Shown here: positions 12,678-38,219 of the stretch, in pieces
Position numbering within the stretch: position 1 is the stretch's first letter
Layout of the letters: each line of letters opens with the position of its first letter
Source of the DNA: Flavobacterium sp. 11
GTDB taxonomy: Bacteria > Bacteroidota > Bacteroidia > Flavobacteriales > Flavobacteriaceae
NCBI RefSeq assembly: GCF_002754315.1
Contig: NZ_PEFE01000001.1
Coordinates: 3,286,001 to 3,350,000 of the forward strand
Length of the DNA stretch: 64,000 bases
Reading direction: 5' to 3'
Position numbers and translations under genes: made by a program
The notes under the pieces: generated by a model
Told to the model about the DNA's origin: nothing
Database searches by the model: none
Seen by the model: the letters and a program-made list of their open reading frames with translations, nothing else

Positions 12678-13859
12678 ATGTCATACAACGTTAACGAAAA
12701 AGGCTATTACGGAGAATTTGGAGGCGCCTACATTCCTGAAATGTTATATCCAAATGTGGAAGAATTACGTCAACAGTATTTAAAAATAACGGCCGAACCA
12801 GAATTTCAAGCTGAGTTTGATGCGTTGCTAAAAGATTATGTAGGTCGCCCAACACCTCTTTATTTTGCAAAACGTCTATCAGAACAATACAACACCAAAA
12901 TCTACTTAAAAAGAGAAGATTTATGCCACACTGGTGCGCACAAAGTCAACAACACGATTGGGCAAATTTTATTAGCCAAACGCTTGGGTAAAAAACGAAT
13001 CATTGCCGAAACCGGTGCGGGTCAACATGGCGTTGCTACAGCAACCGTTTGTGCGTTAATGGGACTGGAATGCATTGTGTATATGGGTGAAATCGACATC
13101 AAACGTCAAGCGCCAAATGTAGCCCGCATGAAAATGTTAGGTGCCGAAGTTCGTCCGGCAATGTCAGGTTCAAAGACCTTAAAAGATGCCACAAACGAAG
13201 CCATTCGCGACTGGATCAACAATCCCGTTGATACCTATTACATCATCGGTTCTGTAGTTGGTCCGCATCCTTATCCGGATATGGTGGCGCGTTTCCAAAG
13301 TGTTATTTCTAAGGAAATTAAAGAACAATTACTGGAAAAAGAAGGTCGTGAAAACCCTGATTATGTGATTGCTTGCGTAGGTGGTGGTAGCAATGCAGCC
13401 GGAGCTTATTATCATTTTTTGGATGAAAAAGACGTGAATATAATTGCAGTCGAAGCAGCGGGATTAGGAGTTGACTCTGGCGAAAGTGCCGCAACTTCTG
13501 CCTTAGGAAAAGTGGGTGTCATTCACGGTAGTAAAACCCTGTTGATGCAAACTACAGATGGTCAAATAACCGAGCCGTATTCTATCTCGGCAGGACTGGA
13601 TTATCCTGGAGTTGGCCCTATGCACGCTAATTTATATGCCACTGGAAGAGCGCAATTCATCTCGATTACTGATGAACAAGCCATGCAATGGGGATTAAAA
13701 TTATCTAAAATGGAAGGACTTATTCCCGCTATCGAAAGTGCGCACGCCTTTGCCGTTCTGGACGAAATGAAATTCAAACCAGAGGATATTGTAGTCATCA
13801 ATCTTTCCGGTCGCGGTGACAAAGATTTGAATACCTATATCGATTATTTTAAATTATAA
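12678..13859 (+). CDS. trpB: Tryptophan synthase beta chain
   Basis: The 393-residue PLP enzyme condenses indole with serine. The PLP Lys89 lies in [13 protein letters not shown]. Other family blocks are [17 protein letters not shown]-like [21 protein letters not shown] (phosphate loop) and the C-terminal [15 protein letters not shown]. Length is normal. It normally forms an alpha2-beta2 complex with TrpA. Here trpA is displaced by 525 bp because a repeat element and an AIG2-like gene sit between them. Confidence 0.98.
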
Positions 13860-13871
13860 CAGAAGAATAAT

Positions 13872-13976
13872 TTGGGCGTTACCCTCCCAAAAAAAGTCGG
13901 GTCGGGCTGTACACTATATCTTTTTTGTGGTAGAAAAAACCACAAAAAAGGATGCCGTTACTATGCCTAACGCAAA
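13872..13976. repeat. Structured intergenic element R1 (nested inverted repeats)
   Basis: The outer ends TTTGGGCGTTA (from 13871) and TAACGCAAA (to 13976) are inverted. The centre is a long hairpin, TTTTTTGTGGT (13921-13931) pairing with ACCACAAAAAA (13939-13949). Between them lie conserved-looking GGGTCGGGCTGTACACTATATC and GGATGCCGTTACTATGCC strings. The layout (pyrimidine/TATATC, T-run stem, A-run, GGAT) is shared with the elements at 39982 and 62316. It sits just after trpB. Function unknown. Confidence 0.7.
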
Positions 13977-14000
13977 TAAATAACGAGAAAAAATAATATT

Positions 14001-14318
14001 ATGGAAAATATATTCTCTTACGGAACATTACAATCTAAAGAAATTCAAATGCAGGTTTTTAACAAGCTATTGACTGGAACACTAGACCAACTCAAAGGCT
14101 ATAAACTAAAAGATCTAAAAATAGAAGAAGAATTTGGAATGGCAGATTATTTTGTAGCAACACCAAGCGAAAATCCTTCGGATGAAATAAATGGTATTGT
14201 TTTTACTGTTTCCAGTGAAGATCTAACTAAAGCAGATCAATTCGAATCTAATGCGTATAAAAGGGTTCAAATAACATTGAAATCTGGAATAGTTGCATGG
14301 ATTTATCTGGAAAATTAA
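14001..14318 (+). CDS. AIG2-like / gamma-glutamylcyclotransferase-fold protein inserted in the trp operon
   Basis: This 105-residue protein has the GGCT/AIG2 fold signature YGTLQ at 7-11, and Glu in DQFESNAYKRV occupies the position of the catalytic acid. Members act on gamma-glutamyl-amines or related compounds; the substrate is unknown. It has no known role in tryptophan synthesis. It sits between trpB and trpA, bracketed by element R1 and by a 27-bp palindromic repeat, which suggests later insertion. It would be co-transcribed with the operon. Confidence 0.8.
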   Translation: MENIFSYGTLQSKEIQMQVFNKLLTGTLDQLKGYKLKDLKIEEEFGMADYFVATPSENPSDEINGIVFTVSSEDLTKADQFESNAYKRVQITLKSGIVAWIYLEN

Positions 14319-14342
14319 TAATTGTAAATATAAAAACATACA

Positions 14343-14369
14343 CCTACAAGGTCTTGAAAACCTTGCAGG
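14343..14369. repeat. Palindromic repeat before trpA
   Basis: CCTACAAGGT (14343-14352) and ACCTTGCAGG (14360-14369) are inverted with one mismatch around CTTGAAA. No T tract follows, so it is not an intrinsic terminator. The word ACCTTGCAGG is one I associate with dispersed repeats in Bacteroidetes (recall only). It lies 15 bp before the trpA start. Confidence 0.65.
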
Positions 14370-14384
14370 ACAAAAAATAAAACA

Positions 14385-15146
14385 ATGAACAGAATAAATC
14401 AAAAATTACAAGAAGACAAAAAGATACTTTCCATCTATTTCTCTGCGGGATATCCTAACTTAAATGATACCGTACAAATCATTCAGGATTTAGAAAAAAG
14501 CGGTATTGATATGATAGAAATTGGATTGCCGTTCAGCGATCCATTGGCTGATGGACCAACGATTCAAGCCAGTTCAACCCAAGCGTTGCATAACGGAATG
14601 ACCACACAAGTTTTGTTTGACCAATTAAAAGACATTCGCAAAACGGTTGCTATTCCTTTAGTCATTATGGGATATTTCAACCCAATGTTGCAATACGGAA
14701 TAGAGAATTTCTGCCAGAAATGTGCCGAGATTGGCATTGATGGATTAATCATTCCTGATCTTCCGGTTGATGTATATGCCGATGAATACAAAGCCACTTT
14801 CGAAAAATATGGCTTGAAAAATATATTCTTGATTACGCCACAAACTTCTGACGAGCGTATTCGTTTTATTGACAGCGTATCTGATGGATTTATCTATATG
14901 GTAAGTTCCGCGAGTGTTACAGGATCACAAACTGGTTTTGGAAGCGTTCAAGAAGACTATTTCAAACGCATTGCCGCAATGAATCTAAAAAATCCTCAAG
15001 TAATTGGTTTTGGAATCAACAATGCTGAAACCTTCAATCAAGCTACACAATTTGCCAAAGGCGCGATTATAGGTAGTGCTTTCATTACGCATTTAACCGA
15101 AAATGGAACTGGGAAAATTGAAGAATTTGTAAAAGCGATTCGATAA
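14385..15146 (+). CDS. trpA: Tryptophan synthase alpha chain
   Basis: The 253-residue TIM barrel cleaves indole-3-glycerol phosphate to indole and G3P. Catalytic Glu45 and Asp56 lie in MIEIGLPFSDPLADGPTIQ. VIMGYFNPMLQYG, LIIPDLPVDVYADEY, FLITPQTSDERI, YMVSSASVTGSQTGFG and VIGFGINNAETF follow in family order. It is the last trp gene; a strong terminator lies 22 bp after its stop. Confidence 0.97.
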   Translation: MNRINQKLQEDKKILSIYFSAGYPNLNDTVQIIQDLEKSGIDMIEIGLPFSDPLADGPTIQASSTQALHNGMTTQVLFDQLKDIRKTVAIPLVIMGYFNPMLQYGIENFCQKCAEIGIDGLIIPDLPVDVYADEYKATFEKYGLKNIFLITPQTSDERIRFIDSVSDGFIYMVSSASVTGSQTGFGSVQEDYFKRIAAMNLKNPQVIGFGINNAETFNQATQFAKGAIIGSAFITHLTENGTGKIEEFVKAIR

Positions 15147-15168
15147 ACAACTTCTTTTATATAAAATC

Positions 15169-15205
15169 AAACGGCGTTTAAAGTTCATTTAAACGTCGTT
15201 TTTTT
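15169..15205 (+). terminator. Terminator of the trp operon
   Basis: AAACGGCGTTTAAA (15169-15182) pairs with TTTAAACGTCGTTT (15188-15201, one G-T pair) around a 5-nt loop and is followed by T residues. It ends the trp transcript. Confidence 0.8.
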
Positions 15206-15301
15206 GTGGTTTAAACAATTATAAGTTTAGTAATTTATAAGATTATTTTTATATATTAGCGCAACTAATAAGACTTATCTTTATCAAATTTATTTCTCTA
15301 T

Positions 15302-15350
15302 ACTTGGGGTGACAGGTCGAAAAATGTCAGACCTATAGACTAGTTGGCAG
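15302..15350. repeat. 5' element of an orphan gene, shared with 37040-37090
   Basis: The strings TTGGGGTGACAGGTC and TGTCAGACCTAT contain an AGGTC/GACCT inverted repeat (15314-15318, 15330-15334). A related arrangement (TTGGGTG..., TGTCAGACATAT, then AGCAG) lies upstream of the small membrane-protein gene at 37122. In both places an orphan, AT-rich gene follows within 50 bp. Confidence 0.5.
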
Positions 15351-15373
15351 ATATTTTAGAAAAAAATACGCAA

Positions 15374-16243
15374 ATGAATATTAACCAAGATAGATTTTCT
15401 GTTGACTTCGGAGAAACTAAAACAATCTGGAATTATGGAATTCCAATTATTGTTCCAGTAAATTTTTCAATTGAACAAGAAAAATACTTAAAAGCAGCTT
15501 TGACAACAATTCAATATGGAAATGTATCAGTTGATAATACCTTGAAGACTTATTTTAAAGACTTTGAAAAAAATGAAAAAATAAGATTTTCAAATTCAAA
15601 AGATAATATTAATTATAAGTATGATTCTTTAATTAATGAAATTTTAAAATTTCAAAAGCAGACATTTGAAAAAATGTCTCGAAAACTTTTAAAATATAAT
15701 TTTGTAGATGATTCAGAATCAATATCATTTTGTGGGTTAATTTTTAAACGATTAATAAGTAGTTTTGACGCTTCAAGAAATCTAATAAAACAAGGTTTTT
15801 ATTTTGAAACATATTCATTAATAAGACAAATGTTAGAACAAATTGCATTTGCATATAACATTTCAGGAAAAGACAATTTTGAAGAATTTATTTCACCAAC
15901 TAAATGTATTAGTTCATTAAAAGACTTTTATCCATATTCAGGAAAGTTTTATGGATTATTAAGTTCAAAAACTCATATTGATAAAAGCCAAATAGAAAGA
16001 TTTTTTTATGTGGACGAAAATGGAGAAGGGCAAATTATTTTGAGGTCACTTCAATATTCAATGGAAACCGCAGTAGATCTTCTAATTATTTTAGACTTAT
16101 ATTGTTGTGTATTTGAATATATTTTTAAAGATAAAATATCCAAATATCAATTTATAGAAAATGAAACTACATTAAATGAAAAAAGAATAACGAGAGTTTT
16201 TTACCATCAAATATTCGAAAAATATAGAACCATAAATAAATAG
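15374..16243 (+). CDS. Hypothetical protein (AT-rich orphan)
   Basis: About 289 residues from the ATG at 15374; a TTG at 15344 would add ten residues but lies next to the upstream repeat. The middle shows an all-helical core with SSFDASRNLIKQGFYFETYSLIRQMLEQIAFAYNIS, which resembles the arginine/leucine helices of DUF5677-like proteins. That resemblance is weak and given from memory. No signal peptide or membrane segment is seen. Codon use is unusually AT-rich even for this genome. It stands alone between a shared 5' element and an attC-like structure, as a mobile cassette would. Confidence 0.6.
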   Translation: MNINQDRFSVDFGETKTIWNYGIPIIVPVNFSIEQEKYLKAALTTIQYGNVSVDNTLKTYFKDFEKNEKIRFSNSKDNINYKYDSLINEILKFQKQTFEKMSRKLLKYNFVDDSESISFCGLIFKRLISSFDASRNLIKQGFYFETYSLIRQMLEQIAFAYNISGKDNFEEFISPTKCISSLKDFYPYSGKFYGLLSSKTHIDKSQIERFFYVDENGEGQIILRSLQYSMETAVDLLIILDLYCCVFEYIFKDKISKYQFIENETTLNEKRITRVFYHQIFEKYRTINK

Positions 16244-16254
16244 AAAAAACATCT

Positions 16255-16466
16255 GCTAACAGTTAGAGATTCGTTGCGTGCGCAGCACGAACAATGCCCC
16301 CCGCTTCGCAAAGTGTTCTTCTGAAAAATAAATTTCTCGTTAATGCTGCGCAAATGTCTCTGACTTTGCGCAATTTTAAGAACTTGCCATTAAAACAAAA
16401 CGCCATAAAGTCTCTGACTTTCATCAACTTAAATTAAAAAACCCGCTGTAGTACCAGAACGTTAGC
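16255..16466. repeat. attC-like inverted element, interrupted by REP unit A
   Basis: GCTAAC (16255-16260) and GTTAGC (16461-16466) are complementary ends. They resemble the RYYYAAC/GTTRRRY cores of integron attC sites. Removing REP unit A (16301-16441) would leave about 70 bp, within the attC size range. No integrase is present in the window, so the identity is inferential. Confidence 0.4.
16301..16441 (+). repeat. REP unit A (two-hairpin element)
   Basis: Hairpin 1 (16347-16372) pairs TGCGCAAA with TTTGCGCA around a bulged T and GTC-TCT-GAC tip. Hairpin 2 (16407-16421) pairs AAAGTC with GACTTT around TCT. They are 34 nt apart. The unit is nearly identical over about 140 bp to unit B at 18575, and its mirror image occurs twice at 19374-19580 beside a RAYT gene. 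Confidence 0.85.
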
Positions 16467-16513
16467 AACAAGCAAAAGAAACAACGTGTATAATCGAGAA
16501 GAAAAAATATTTT

Positions 16514-16529
16514 AACGAACGTTAGGTAA
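16514..16529. promoter_or_regulatory. Candidate TetR operator at the tetR promoter
   Basis: AACGAACGTTAGGTAA is an imperfect palindrome that overlaps the -33 region (TTAG at 16522-16525). A near copy, AACAAACGTTCGGTAA, lies at 17142-17157 directly before the next gene. The pairing with the intervening TetR gene suggests autoregulation plus separate control of the downstream pair. Confidence 0.6.
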
Positions 16530-16552
16530 TTAATAAATTTTACTTATATTTG
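16522..16552 (+). promoter_or_regulatory. Promoter of the tetR gene, predicted leaderless
   Basis: TATATTTG (16545-16552) is a perfect -7 box; TTAG 19 bp upstream is a 3/4 match to TTTG. Only 4 nt separate the box from the ATG at 16557. Transcription would therefore begin at or next to the start codon. Confidence 0.6.
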
Positions 16553-16556
16553 CACT

Positions 16557-17120
16557 ATGAGACCACAGAAAATTTTAGATACAGATATGATAGCCGGACT
16601 TACCAAAGTTTTTAGAGATAAAGGCTATGAAGGAACGAGTTTAAATGATTTAGCAAAAGTAACTGGATTAAAAAAAGCAAGCCTCTATCATCGATTTCCA
16701 AATGGAAAACAAGAGATGGCAGAATCTGTATTAAGAGATATAGATCAGTGGGTTGATGATAATATTTTCTTTCCTCTTTTGGACGAAAATAAATCAACAA
16801 AATTGAGATTAAAAGATTCTCTAAAAAATATTGAAATTCTTTATGATAGCGGAAAAGAAACGTGTGTTTTAAGAGCCTTTTCTATGCATAGCGGATTATC
16901 GCTATTTGAGCAACAGGTAAAATCTGGTATGGATAAATGGATTACCGCTTTTAATGCATTTGGTATTGCCTTAAAATTAACTTCCACACAATCTCAACAA
17001 AACGCTATTCAGACCTTAATAGAATTGCAAGGCAGTCTAATTGTAACAAAAGGGTTAGCTGATACAAGTATTTTTAAAAATACTTTAAAAAATATTGAAA
17101 AGCGATATTCAATAGAGTAA
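16557..17120 (+). CDS. TetR/AcrR family transcriptional regulator
   Basis: The 187-residue protein has an N-terminal TetR helix-turn-helix at about 10-55 (FRDKGYEGTSLNDLAKVTGLKKASLYHRF). An all-helical ligand-binding domain follows, of the kind seen in the LmrA/YxaF branch. It precedes a SnoaL/NTF2-like gene and an alpha/beta hydrolase. Matched palindromes before its own start and before the next gene suggest it represses both, with an electrophilic or aromatic small molecule as possible inducer (inferred). The whole cassette is flanked by direct copies of REP units A and B. Confidence 0.9.
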   Translation: MRPQKILDTDMIAGLTKVFRDKGYEGTSLNDLAKVTGLKKASLYHRFPNGKQEMAESVLRDIDQWVDDNIFFPLLDENKSTKLRLKDSLKNIEILYDSGKETCVLRAFSMHSGLSLFEQQVKSGMDKWITAFNAFGIALKLTSTQSQQNAIQTLIELQGSLIVTKGLADTSIFKNTLKNIEKRYSIE

Positions 17121-17141
17121 AAAAATTTGAATTAATAAATT

Positions 17142-17157
17142 AACAAACGTTCGGTAA
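17142..17157. promoter_or_regulatory. Second TetR operator, before the NTF2-like gene
   Basis: AACAAACGTTCGGTAA differs from the 16514-16529 site at two of 16 positions and ends 3 bp before the downstream ATG. A repressor bound here could block initiation or elongation into the NTF2-like/hydrolase pair. Confidence 0.6.
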
Positions 17158-17160
17158 ATT

Positions 17161-17571
17161 ATGATACAATTACATCCACTACCTCCTTTTAACAAAGAAA
17201 CAGCGATACAAAAAATTCAAAAGGCAGAAGATGCTTGGAACAGCAAAGACCCAATTCAAATTTCAAAAGCATATACACTTGATACAGAATGGCGTAATCG
17301 AAATCAATTCATTAATGGAAGAAAAGAAGTACAAGATTTTCTTGCTAACAAATGGAAAAATGAATTGGATTATAAACTAAAAAAACAACTTTGGACATTT
17401 AACGACAACCGTATTGCTGTACGATTTGAGTACGAATATCGAGATAAAAATGGTCAATGGTATAGAGCTTACGGAAACGAGAATTGGGAATTTGATGAAA
17501 ATGGATTAATGAAAAAAAGGTTCGCAAGCATAAATGACTTAAAAATTAAAGAAACAGAAAGAAGGTTATAA
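17161..17571 (+). CDS. NTF2-like (DUF1348-type) protein
   Basis: This 136-residue cone-fold protein is recognised by [44 protein letters not shown] and [32 protein letters not shown], the core of the DUF1348/SnoaL-related family. Many are small-molecule isomerases or cyclases, but this branch has no settled function. It lies 40 bp after tetR and 11 bp before the hydrolase, which suggests joint detoxification or catabolism of one substrate. Confidence 0.85.
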
Positions 17572-17582
17572 ACAATTAGAAT

Positions 17583-18551
17583 ATGAAAAAAATTATCCTA
17601 TTACAACTAATTATCCTATTCACATTATTTGGATGTAAAAGCAAAACAAGTAGTAAAACTATCGATAAATCAAAAAGTATGACACACAAACACCCCACAT
17701 TATTTAAAACCATCGAAATTGACGGAATTAATATTGCTTACAGAGAGGCAGGAAATCCCAAAAATCCTACAATAGTGCTATTACATGGTTTTCCTTCATC
17801 TTCACATCAATACCGAAAAGTTTTATCACAGTTATCTGATGACTTTCATTTGATTGCACCAGATTATCCCTCTTTTGGAAATAGCGATTTTCCATTGGCA
17901 AGTGAATATGAATACACTTTTGATAATATTGCAAAAACTATAGATGCCTTTCTAGAAAAGAAAAAAATTGAGTCTTATGCATTAATGATACAAGATTATG
18001 GAGCACCTATTGGCTTCAGAATAGCGACAGCTCACCCAGAAAGGGTTACGGCAATAATAAATCAAAACGGAAACGCATATTTAGAAGGTTTGGGTGGTGC
18101 TTGGGCTGGAATTAGAGCGCTTTGGAAAGACCGAAATCCTGAAACCGAAAAAGCAATACTACCAGCATTTTCATTAGACGGTTTGAAATGGCAATACACA
18201 CACGGAACAAGAAATGTTGAAACAATAAATCCCGACACTTGGCATTTAGATTATTTAAGAATTTCAAGACCAAATGCACATAAAGTCAATATGGATTTAT
18301 TTTACGATTATCAAAACAACTTAAAACTTTATCCAAAATGGCAGCAGTATTTAAGAGATAATCAGCCACCTTTATTAATAGTTTGGGGGAAAAATGATGA
18401 GTTTTTTCCTGAAAGCGGAGCAGTTGCTTTCAAAAAAGATGTAAAGGAAATCGACTATAATATTTATGATACTGGGCATTTTGCATTAGAAGAAAATGGA
18501 GAAGAAATAATAGAAAAAATTAGAATATTTATGACGAAAGTTGGGCGGTAA
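17583..18551 (+). CDS. Alpha/beta hydrolase lipoprotein, epoxide hydrolase/dehalogenase-like
   Basis: The 322-residue protein begins with a lipoprotein signal (LFGC, Cys18), so it is probably anchored in the envelope. The hydrolase fold shows the oxyanion loop HGFPSSS (68-74), a nucleophile elbow IQDYGAP with Asp138 in place of Ser, Asp272 in WGKNDEFF and His299 in DTGHFALEE. An Asp nucleophile points to epoxide hydrolase or haloalkane dehalogenase chemistry rather than an esterase. It ends 24 bp before REP unit B. Substrate unknown. Confidence 0.85.
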   Translation: MKKIILLQLIILFTLFGCKSKTSSKTIDKSKSMTHKHPTLFKTIEIDGINIAYREAGNPKNPTIVLLHGFPSSSHQYRKVLSQLSDDFHLIAPDYPSFGNSDFPLASEYEYTFDNIAKTIDAFLEKKKIESYALMIQDYGAPIGFRIATAHPERVTAIINQNGNAYLEGLGGAWAGIRALWKDRNPETEKAILPAFSLDGLKWQYTHGTRNVETINPDTWHLDYLRISRPNAHKVNMDLFYDYQNNLKLYPKWQQYLRDNQPPLLIVWGKNDEFFPESGAVAFKKDVKEIDYNIYDTGHFALEENGEEIIEKIRIFMTKVGR

Positions 18552-18574
18552 TTGCCAGCTCCGCAAAGTGTTCC

Positions 18575-18716
18575 CCGCTCCGCAAAGTGTTCTTCTGAAA
18601 AATAAATTTCTCGTTAATGCTGCGCAAATGTCTCTGACTTTGCGCAATTTTAGGAACTTGCCATTAAAACAAAACGCCATAAAGTCTCTGACTTTCATCG
18701 TCTTAAATTAAAAAAA
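18575..18716 (+). repeat. REP unit B, left flank of the RAYT gene
   Basis: Hairpin 1 lies at 18621-18646 and hairpin 2 at 18681-18695, with the same stems, bulge and TCT loops as unit A. The two units differ at only a few positions over about 140 bp. A 16-bp word, GCTCCGCAAAGTGTTC, is duplicated at its left edge (18558-18573 and 18577-18592). The unit ends 50 bp before the RAYT start. Confidence 0.88.
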
Positions 18717-18765
18717 CACAAACAAGTCATTAAAATCGTTATTTTTATAGTAAAAATACGTCAAA

Positions 18766-19365
18766 ATGAAAGAAGGCTATATAATTCGGGACCAAACTTT
18801 ACCATATTATATTACGGCAACTGTTGTCGATTGGATCGATATTTTTACCAGGCAAACTTACAGAGATAGTATAATAGAATCTTTGGATTACTGCATAAAA
18901 AACAAAGGAATGATTATGTATGGTTATGTTATTATGAGCAATCACATTCATTTAATTATTCAATCGGAGGACGGGAAATTATCAGATTTGATAAGAGATT
19001 TCAAAAAATTCACTGCGAAAAACATTTTGGATAAAATCCAAGCTGTACCAGAAAGCCGAAAAGAATGGATGCTAGAACGCTTCAAACTAGCAGCAGAAAA
19101 GCATACAAGAAACAAAAATTATCAATTTTGGCAATACGGTAATCATGCAGAAGAAATTTATACAAATAAATTTATGTGGTCTAAATTAGATTACATTCAT
19201 CTGAATCCAGTAAGAGCCGGTTTAGTTGAAAAGGCTTCACACTATATTTATTCCAGCGCAAGCAATTACATAAATGATTCCGGATTATTAAAAATAGAAA
19301 AAGCAGATAATCCTATAATTAATGTTTTAGATTCGAATGCTTTTGTAAAATACAATCAGCAATGA
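18766..19365 (+). CDS. REP-associated tyrosine transposase (RAYT, Y1/HUH family)
   Basis: The 199-residue single-strand transposase has the HUH metal motif His60-Ile-His62 in YVIMSNHIHLII. The candidate catalytic Tyr143 is in LDYIHLNPVRAGLVEKASHYIYSSASNY, a hallmark C-terminal block of RAYTs related to IS200/IS605 TnpA. Length and both motifs are intact, so it may be active. It is bracketed by REP units in opposite orientation: unit B on the left, and mirror-image units C and D on the right. That is the arrangement in which RAYTs mobilise REPs. REP hairpins are the likely DNA substrate. Confidence 0.93.
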   Translation: MKEGYIIRDQTLPYYITATVVDWIDIFTRQTYRDSIIESLDYCIKNKGMIMYGYVIMSNHIHLIIQSEDGKLSDLIRDFKKFTAKNILDKIQAVPESRKEWMLERFKLAAEKHTRNKNYQFWQYGNHAEEIYTNKFMWSKLDYIHLNPVRAGLVEKASHYIYSSASNYINDSGLLKIEKADNPIINVLDSNAFVKYNQQ

Positions 19366-19373
19366 AATAGTAC

Positions 19374-19450
19374 AAAAGTCAGAGACTTTTATGACACTAC
19401 CTAATTTAAACAGATGCTGAAAATTACGCAAAGTCAGAGACATTTGCGCA
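19374..19450 (-). repeat. REP unit C (mirror orientation)
   Basis: Hairpin 2 (19374-19390: AAAAGTC-AGA-GACTTTT) lies only 8 bp after the RAYT stop. Hairpin 1 (19425-19450) has one stem change, TACGCAAA instead of TGCGCAAA. Order and strand are the mirror image of unit B, so hairpin 2 is nearest the gene on both sides. Confidence 0.85.
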
Positions 19451-19504
19451 GCATACATAACAAACACTTCTGCTCTACAACATGTTCTTTTAAAAAAAGT
19501 ATTC

Positions 19505-19580
19505 AAAAGTCAGAGACTTTTATGACGCTACTAATTTAAACAGATGCTGAAAATTGCGCAAAGTCAGAGACATTTGCGCA
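19505..19580 (-). repeat. REP unit D (tandem copy of C)
   Basis: Hairpin 2 at 19505-19521 and a perfect hairpin 1 at 19555-19580 repeat unit C with a period of about 131 bp, including the flanking words AATTTAAACAGATGCTGA and CAAACACTTCTGCTC. C and D form a tandem pair of the same polarity. The stretch 19581-19720 holds no gene apart from a weak upstream extension of the GNAT frame. Confidence 0.85.
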
Positions 19581-19720
19581 GCATACACAACAAACACTTC
19601 TGCTCACAAAATAATCTTCTAAAAAATAAATACATTCTACAATGTGGATTGTGCAAAATTTAAAGTTTGTTTTGTACTTTTAAAACATACTCATTAACCG
19701 AAAAAACTCAAATTACAAGA

Positions 19721-20236
19721 ATGAATTATCACTTTAGAAAAGCGGAACTATCTGAAATAGCTCCAATATGGGAAATTTTACAACAAGCTATACAACGAAG
19801 AAAAGAAGACGGGAGCAATCAATGGCAAGACGGCTATCCAAATCCGGAAGTCATACAAAAAGATATTGAAAAAGGAGAAGGATTTGTTTTGGTTGATGGA
19901 GAAACTATCATCGGTTATAGTGCGGTACTAATCAATGACGAACCTGCCTATGAGAAAATTGAAGGAGAGTGGCTAACGAATGGTGATTTTGTAGTACTGC
20001 ACCGCGTTGCTATTTCTGAAAAGTACTTGGGTAAAGGCTTGGCAAAAATGATTCTCAAATACATAGAAGAATTTGCGGTAAGCAACAACATTTACAGCAT
20101 AAAAGCAGACACCAATTTTGACAATATCGCCATGATGAAAATTTTTGAAAGTTCGGGTTATACGTACTGTGGCGAAGTATATTTTAGAGGAAGTCCTAGA
20201 AAAGCATACGAAAAAGTCTTAGCGAAACTGGACTAA
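19721..20236 (+). CDS. GNAT family N-acetyltransferase
   Basis: 171 residues from the ATG at 19721 (MNYHFRKAELSE). An upstream TTG at 19667 stays in frame but adds an unlikely N-terminus. The acetyl-CoA fold shows EKYLGKGLAKMILKYIEEFA (the Q/RxxGxG/A pyrophosphate loop as KGLA) and YSIKADTNFDNIAMMKIFESSGY, ending in CGEVYFRGSPRKAYEK. The substrate is not evident. It is isolated between the REP tandem and a bidirectional hairpin. Confidence 0.88.
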   Translation: MNYHFRKAELSEIAPIWEILQQAIQRRKEDGSNQWQDGYPNPEVIQKDIEKGEGFVLVDGETIIGYSAVLINDEPAYEKIEGEWLTNGDFVVLHRVAISEKYLGKGLAKMILKYIEEFAVSNNIYSIKADTNFDNIAMMKIFESSGYTYCGEVYFRGSPRKAYEKVLAKLD

Positions 20237-38130: not shown

Positions 38131-38184
38131 AATCCGCAAAGTATTTCCTTCTATACGCTACGCAAATGTCTCTGACTTTACGCC
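38131..38184 (+). repeat. REP unit E (degenerate, hairpin 1 only)
   Basis: TCCGCAAAGTATTT, then a shortened spacer, then ACGCAAATGTCTCTGAC and TTTACGC (38160-38183), correspond to the start and hairpin 1 of units A and B, but with stem mismatches. Hairpin 2 is absent. This is a decayed member of the RAYT-linked family about 19 kb from the transposase. Confidence 0.7.
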
Positions 38185-38219
38185 CACAACAATAAGCAAA
38201 ACAAACATAAACCCACAAA

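Follow-up and report, generated by a model that had tools for sequence, protein, structure and literature searches.

The window analysed here, a stretch of 64,000 nucleotides (positions 3286001-3350000) of the one-contig, 3.76-Mb genome of Flavobacterium sp. 11, very probably harbours a REPtron, in which a RAYT gene coding for a single-tyrosine HUH endonuclease is accompanied by its own cognate mirrored repeats, which the RAYT would move. The first-pass annotation of this DNA had proposed as much, and two findings bear it out: the protein scores above the cut-off of the NCBIfam signature for REP-associated tyrosine transposases, and two inverted palindromic repeats flank its gene. The locus is of a kind already known, a little-described REPtron of the Bacteroidota. 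Its repeat, a two-hairpin unit with a GCT foot, and the deletion derivatives of such elements seem to be new.

The RAYT gene (18766-19365, + strand, in window coordinates) is an intact open reading frame coding for 199 residues, with the HUH motif N59-H60-I61-H62, W122-Q123, the candidate nucleophile Y143 in a YIHLNP motif, and S163-S164. The protein matches NCBIfam NF047646 (REP-associated tyrosine transposase) with 99.2 bits for a cut-off of 80 and PF01797 with 29.3 bits for a cut-off of 23. H60, H62, W122 and Y143 are invariant in 44 aligned RAYT rows, i.e. the window's and chosen stop-free rows from 80 named loci (the best 80 of 260 RAYT matches), confirming the HUH residues and the tyrosine singled out in the first-pass annotation. 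An AlphaFold model of the protein is of poor confidence (pLDDT 63); its best Foldseek match is 4er8, the E. coli RAYT in complex with a REP hairpin (E 6e-6), which a PDB profile search with the protein likewise found (E 0.008). In this low-confidence model, a helix (residues 96-111) precedes a strand (126-130), in the part of the protein where TnpAY1 subclass 2.6 (see below) has a short insertion between helix C and strand 4. The dN/dS ratio is 0.065-0.091 relative to the three nearest named species, F. rhamnosiphilum, F. sp. AED and F. gawalongense, and at the sequence level the gene is under purifying selection. The best named match, from F. rhamnosiphilum, is 97% identical, in a search that may omit the window's own or very near records. 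A second RAYT-like gene of the Flavobacterium sp. 11 genome (561060-561566, locus L182; 46% identity) is flanked by mirrored repeats whose sequence is unlike that of the window's. PADLOC returned no match for four proteins.

Each repeat unit comprises a 26-nt hairpin with a bulged T (hairpin 1) and a 15-17-nt hairpin (hairpin 2), as first described. Unit B (18573-18715, + strand), upstream of the gene, carries an outer box, CCCCGCTCCGCAAAGTGTTC, a GCT foot at 18619-18621, hairpin 1 at 18621-18646 and, after a gap of 34 nt, hairpin 2 at 18681-18695. Downstream, unit C (19373-19497, - strand) consists of hairpin 2 (19374-19390), hairpin 1 (19425-19450), a GCT foot (19450-19452) and a degenerate outer box, and in tandem with it unit D (19504-19626, - strand) has hairpin 2 at 19505-19521, hairpin 1 at 19555-19580 and its GCT foot at 19580-19582. 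Coordinates and strands agree with the mirrored arrangement claimed earlier for B relative to C and D, hairpin 2 being the gene-proximal hairpin on both sides. A solo copy, unit A (16299-16441, + strand; hairpin 1 at 16347-16372 and hairpin 2 at 16407-16421), is identical to unit B at 139 of 143 nt. The locus delimited in the first-pass annotation (18575-19580) is real, but its limits are slightly short on both sides, since the homology between units A and B begins at 18573, with CCCCGCT, and unit D reaches ~19626. Immediately left of unit B lies an extra partial outer box (18552-18572, + strand; box regular-expression match at 18558), which forms a direct repeat, and a solo hairpin 1 is found elsewhere in the window (38157-38186, + strand; 36.8 bits). 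Altogether, the window has nine matches to AAAGTCTCTGACTTT with at most two mismatches, against a mean of 0.25 and a maximum of 3 in shuffled sequences. DNA folding of the four units gave z-scores of -3.55 to -5.15, with unit D equalled by 1 of 200 shuffles.

The hairpin common to 30 close RAYT loci of the genus (see below) has a GCT foot, a stem of ~7 pairs in which one base, mostly T, may be bulged, and a GTC-TC[CT](N)-GAC tip. The classical 5' tetranucleotide, GTAG or GT[AG]G, is absent from the hairpins, most of which have GCT instead. One of our regular expressions demanded this foot; a second scan made no such demand and found 94 hairpins. An automatic rule assigned GCT to the foot in 63 of them, and 15 more have GCT inside the counted stem (78 together). 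Among the 16 hairpins without GCT, 13 resemble hairpin 2 and three are hairpin 1.

The aligned hairpin-1 stems covary across clades. Paired cells amount to 92.6%, compared with at most 49% for slid partners, and 33 cells are double-changed vs 11.7 in shuffles, a value reached by none of 500. The covariation score is 0.411 (0.220 in shuffles), and both this score and the number of paired cells were reached by 0 of 500 shuffles. Two of the five measures lend the structure no support, the pairs with a double change being equalled by 26 of 500 shuffles and the further pair types by 496 of 500. A separate parse, which took in 42 of 44 hairpins, found Watson-Crick pairs in 245 of 294 cells (mean 202 and maximum 221 in 2000 shuffles). 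In the window's own group there are no double changes, and hairpin 2 shows no variation there; its identification in this group therefore rests on conservation.

The upstream flank matched the reverse-complemented downstream flank better than all 20 shuffles at 29 of 30 close RAYT loci, the window's included (genus Flavobacterium, 66-100% identity, some copies broken). The sole failing locus, L023, has just 165 nt upstream. At least one GCT-foot hairpin is present at 77 of the 80 named loci; hairpins occur on both sides at 54 of the 80, with the nearest two oriented (+,-) in 50 of these 54. Sister RAYT loci (44-53% identity, L182 among them) also exceed their own flank shuffles in 19 of 20 cases, with hairpins that we judged by eye to be of other sequence, as are the second hairpins of L188, L189, L191 and L196 among them.

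A maximum-likelihood RAYT tree was built from 81 rows, nine of which contain stops, kept as X, and one of which (L118) is a long branch. A label-shuffle test was performed on 78 rows, three being dropped for want of a parsable hairpin, and second hairpins resembling another hairpin 1 (stems CGAA, CGAG, TGAA and CAAA) were set aside. On this tree, second-hairpin type needs 3 changes, compared with at least 22 in 300 label shuffles; inner arm type needs 2 (at least 15) and the bulge 5 (at least 15). A second hairpin whose tip lies 36-42 nt past the hairpin-1 stem is found in 19 of 20 rows of the weakly supported window group (83/77). A clade with strong support (100/100) has one whose tip lies 11-12 nt past that stem in each of its 12 rows, and the stems of this second hairpin take several complementary forms (AAG/CTT, TCA/TGA, CG/CG). 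Over these rows, hairpin type follows the RAYT tree, and two groups are set apart by having a second hairpin. Hairpin 2 has the look of a weaker duplicate of the same recognition structure that certain groups have gained.

Repeats were counted with two covariance models, R1 for hairpin 1 and R2 for the two-hairpin unit; R1 was built from RAYT-flanking copies, many of them out of the same genomes as were searched. In the Flavobacterium sp. 11 genome, R1 found 13 hairpin-1 matches (E <=0.01; 150 candidates scored), short of the >100 copies per genome usual for classical REPs (Nunvar et al. 2010, PMC2817692). Such low dispersal over 3.76 Mb counts against the REPtron explanation. As to the presence of the unit elsewhere in the genome, the exact pattern TCTCTGAC-N(30-60)-TCTCTGAC occurs four times, always within 3.3 kb at the RAYT locus, whereas R2 has at least nine matches (E <=0.01), the five listed being units A-D and a weaker one at genome position 3486121. 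The exact-pattern search also caught a 21-bp tandem repeat with TCTCTGAC, unrelated to the REP unit, at G179:C1:748681-748772.

Among 199 genomes of the genus, a RAYT protein match was found in 104 and hairpin 1 (E <=0.05) in 140. The median hairpin-1 count is 10 in the 35 genomes with a close RAYT (chosen from the matches listed, at 58-100% identity, fragments and broken copies included), all of which have matches; it is 4 in the 69 with other RAYTs only, 53 of which have matches, and 1 in the 95 without a RAYT match. These and the other per-genome hairpin counts are lower bounds (candidates scored: 37 for R1 and 22 for R2 in the genus, 29 in the order). With stratification for genome size, the difference in hairpin-1 counts was reached by 0 of 5000 permutations, and by 38 of 5000 after four local copies had been subtracted per close-RAYT genome. 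R2 matches occur in 80 of the 199 genomes, with a median (again of lower bounds) of 8.5 in the eight genomes that have a RAYT match at >=80% identity (in G091 to a broken copy), vs 0 in the rest (p 5e-6); among genomes of >=4.4 Mb (7 vs 39), p = 0.06. Between 4 and 14 R2 matches, as lower bounds, are present in G054, G103, G108, G151, G154 and G187, which have no RAYT match.

In the order as a whole (246 genomes), hairpin 1 (E <=0.001) was found in 39 genomes, RAYT in 58, weak and distant matches included, and both in 31. The first-pass annotation would have been contradicted by repeats found equally often in genomes lacking the gene, and what we observed is hairpin 1 in 31 of 58 RAYT-positive vs 8 of 188 RAYT-negative genomes (Fisher p 2.5e-16, genomes treated as independent), including all eight genomes with a RAYT match of >=66% identity. 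Its idea that copy number tracks RAYT holds for these proportions and for the genus medians, but strict tracking does not, as hairpin 1 has at least one match in 52 of the 95 genus genomes without a RAYT match, which counts against the link between RAYT and repeat. The copy-number data indicate that the repeats go with the RAYT gene but persist after its loss or reach genomes that lack it.

The surroundings of the gene were compared between species. Between the direct units A and B lies a cassette of TetR, DUF1348 and hydrolase genes (16442-18572, + strand; open reading frames and Pfam), whose link to the element is uncertain. It has no match at the F. sp. AED locus (L073), which matches window positions 13565-15357 and the RAYT; this would fit an insertion as well as a loss through recombination between units. 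The right flank is common to the window, F. rhamnosiphilum, F. sp. AED and F. gawalongense, with DUF4494 in all three relatives and GNAT in two of them, indicating that the RAYT is old at this locus. The RAYT clade of this four-species group has 13 further rows, and comparison with them gave a single flanking-ORF match, of 31% and on opposite sides; among those 13 rows, a few pairs share one flank. At the F. rhamnosiphilum locus (L072, 1032-4846), RAYT and GNAT are each duplicated in tandem, with many units, and one RAYT copy has Ser at position 23, which is Trp in all 44 aligned rows. In L113, L104 and loci such as L139, L142 and L151, a left-flank ORF is ~80% alike across genera, which suggests that the RAYT has long kept its place in those lineages.

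The following scheme is the most likely one for the REPtron. When the locus is single-stranded, e.g. on the lagging strand, hairpin 1 would fold, and the RAYT would bind its stem, its tip and its 5' GCT foot, the latter acting as a putative guide. H60 and H62 would hold a metal and Y143 would cut, making a 5'-phosphotyrosine link; the cut strand could then be transferred elsewhere, such that the RAYT would spread units or doublets at a low rate. Since the units are mirrored, a repeat in the correct orientation is available at one end of either strand.

Inverted REP doublets without a gene, the trait of REPINs, are present, with one in the Flavobacterium sp. 11 genome (hairpin 1 at genome positions 1494103+ and 1494187-) and 23 convergent pairs in 12 chosen genomes, in which, over 150 matches listed, neighbours <=400 nt apart were also divergent in 4 cases and in the same direction in 19. 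Their sequences suggest that flavobacterial doublets may descend from a whole RAYT-bearing element. On a reading to which we give even chances, and which adds to the REPtron explanation without replacing it, the whole element, from one outer box through hairpins, RAYT and mirrored hairpins to the other box, acts or once acted as an autonomous IS with inverted ends, and the RAYT-less doublets are its internally deleted miniatures. Consistent with this, G054 has four elements of ~314 bp with an inverted CCGCTCCGC box at either end; for copies 2/3 and 3/4 the alignments end at or a few bases from the boxes and the flanks differ, and for copy 4 the homology with G008 and G004 ends at the left box, beyond which those two genomes stay alike. 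G066 carries two copies, on two contigs, in which the RAYT leader runs directly into the last part of the gene (~codon 167 onwards), followed by the right unit. Five copies of ~273 nt in G365 (G365:C15:172600-176500, L214), 95-99% alike, fuse RAYT codons 1-10 (MKEGYIIRDQ) to the 3' end of the gene at one common junction, and an intact REPtron lies ~170 kb off on the same contig. However, the latter is 71-85% identical to the ends of the miniature copies, which are therefore not its direct offspring, and they form one 2.7-kb cluster, so that local duplication is possible. G339 likewise has an intact REPtron, along with two loci at which inverted hairpins enclose a RAYT remnant (residues 147-197), but over 1155 bp, which extend into the flank, these two loci are 99.3% identical and may represent a single segment that was duplicated. 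The nearly complete lack of shared flanks between the window's four-species group and the 13 other clade rows favours movement, whereas the right flank kept in four species, and the neighbours kept in several species of another clade, count against it. Outer boxes distinct from hairpin 1 were found upstream at 23 of the 80 named loci, downstream at 8 and on any side at 25, but on both sides at only 6, and dN/dS values of 0.05-0.09 fit upkeep by the host or by the element alike. No site empty on both flanks was found for G054 copy 4 or for the doublet at 1494103, which leaves transposition not proven and movement of the element plausible. The former candidate was rejected, as the left flank alone is shared with G008 and G004, and the latter is not clean, as G007 aligns with the left flank and the right-hairpin region, with ~375 bp missing between them. 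The stretch near this doublet (1494103-1494216, L165), which we take to be probably a tRNA gene, matches 59 of 60 genomes searched. L084 and L085 were rejected as two insertions, being largely the same sequence, and L218 had no match with L219 and L220.

A role of the units as ordinary terminators of transcription, or as stems that stabilise mRNA and flank the gene by chance, is highly improbable. They are intergenic, and T-rich tracts follow hairpin 1 in several relatives, but the two terminator-like sites in 16200-19800 compare with 2.1 expected and neither is at a hairpin, Rfam gave no match in 16000-20000, and the hairpins track the RAYT tree by type, are mirrored around the gene and form doublets without it. 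RAYTs have been described as domesticated, vertically inherited genes (PMC8049555), and full domestication of this one for a host task such as single-strand DNA processing, with the hairpins only as binding or regulatory sites, would agree with the purifying selection, the right flank common to four species and the low copy number of the repeats. It sits poorly with the patchy presence of RAYT (58 of 246 genomes of the order) and with the doublets and deletion derivatives of other genomes, and we consider it unlikely. We retain the REPtron as the best description of the locus.

IS200/IS605 elements have hairpins near their ends. The window RAYT shares the fold of their transposases, such as those of IS608 and ISDra2 (Foldseek), and the PF01797 signature; it differs in that its repeats are mirrored and that the NCBIfam model of the IS200 transposase yields 21.8 bits, below the cut-off of 55. 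Bacteroidetes RAYTs were classified by Quentin et al. (2018, PMC6006769) as TnpAY1 subclass 2.6, which a table of that paper equates with Bertels group 5, and atypical flanking structures without GT[AG]G were found there by manual inspection. The window RAYT resembles this subclass in its Bacteroidetes origin, its NH[LIV]H and WQ motifs, its SS tail, its atypical flanking structures and the presence of copies elsewhere, and its HuH-Y spacing of 83 residues (H60-Y143) or 81 (H62-Y143) compares with a published median of 82. Its Y motif, YIHLNP, does not match the published YIH[QN]NP, which is a MEME consensus, and we therefore call it closest to subclass 2.6, with no formal filing. The suggestion of the first-pass annotation that the system may be undescribed is thus not supported for the whole and seems right for the GCT foot and the two-hairpin unit, since the text consulted on subclass 2.6 (PMC6006769) mentions neither the sequence of a hairpin nor a foot motif, and neither a second hairpin nor deletion derivatives. 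The part of the RepRanger study (2025, PMC12306157) with palindrome counts for two Flavobacterium species mentions neither RAYT nor TnpA, and a search of one library for RAYT, REPIN, REPtron or TnpAREP in Bacteroidota or Flavobacterium found nothing more specific.

Gammaproteobacterial RAYT/REP systems, as presented by Nunvar et al. (2010, PMC2817692), likewise have two inverted REPs around the gene, co-evolution of the two partners, a repeat abundance tied to RAYT and, in some species, accumulation near the gene. They differ in their usual hundreds of copies, against the 13 hairpin-1 matches of Flavobacterium sp. 11, and from some flavobacterial groups in lacking a two-hairpin unit. Their foot, like that of the E. 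coli TnpAREP (4er8), is GTAG, and the flavobacterial one GCT. Three other TnpAREPs cut single strands, with a role for the GTAG motif (Corneloup et al. 2021, PMC8266576). REPINs were described as inverted REP doublets without a gene and proposed to derive from REPs flanking an ancestral autonomous element (Bertels and Rainey 2011, PMC3116915). Flavobacterial doublets are inverted, gene-less REP pairs as well; unlike REPINs as described there, some still hold pieces of the RAYT gene, and their copy numbers are low.

The GCT foot and the two-hairpin unit supply defined substrates for this RAYT group, for which we found no biochemistry in the literature searched. The joint presence of an intact element and derivatives in G365 and G339 makes the proposed descent of doublets (PMC3116915) testable. 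We tentatively suggest, with a little less than even confidence, that the REPtrons of flavobacteria move, or did so until recently, as whole elements bounded by inverted ends, that internal deletion of the RAYT has repeatedly turned them into miniatures that multiply, and that successive duplication of the terminal hairpin gave rise to the two-hairpin units. If so, the flavobacterial miniatures would supply the step that is missing between an autonomous element with a RAYT and REP doublets without one. Intact elements, their deletion derivatives and bare doublets all appear to occur in Flavobacteriales, and the origin of free-standing hairpin repeats may perhaps be visible in this order.
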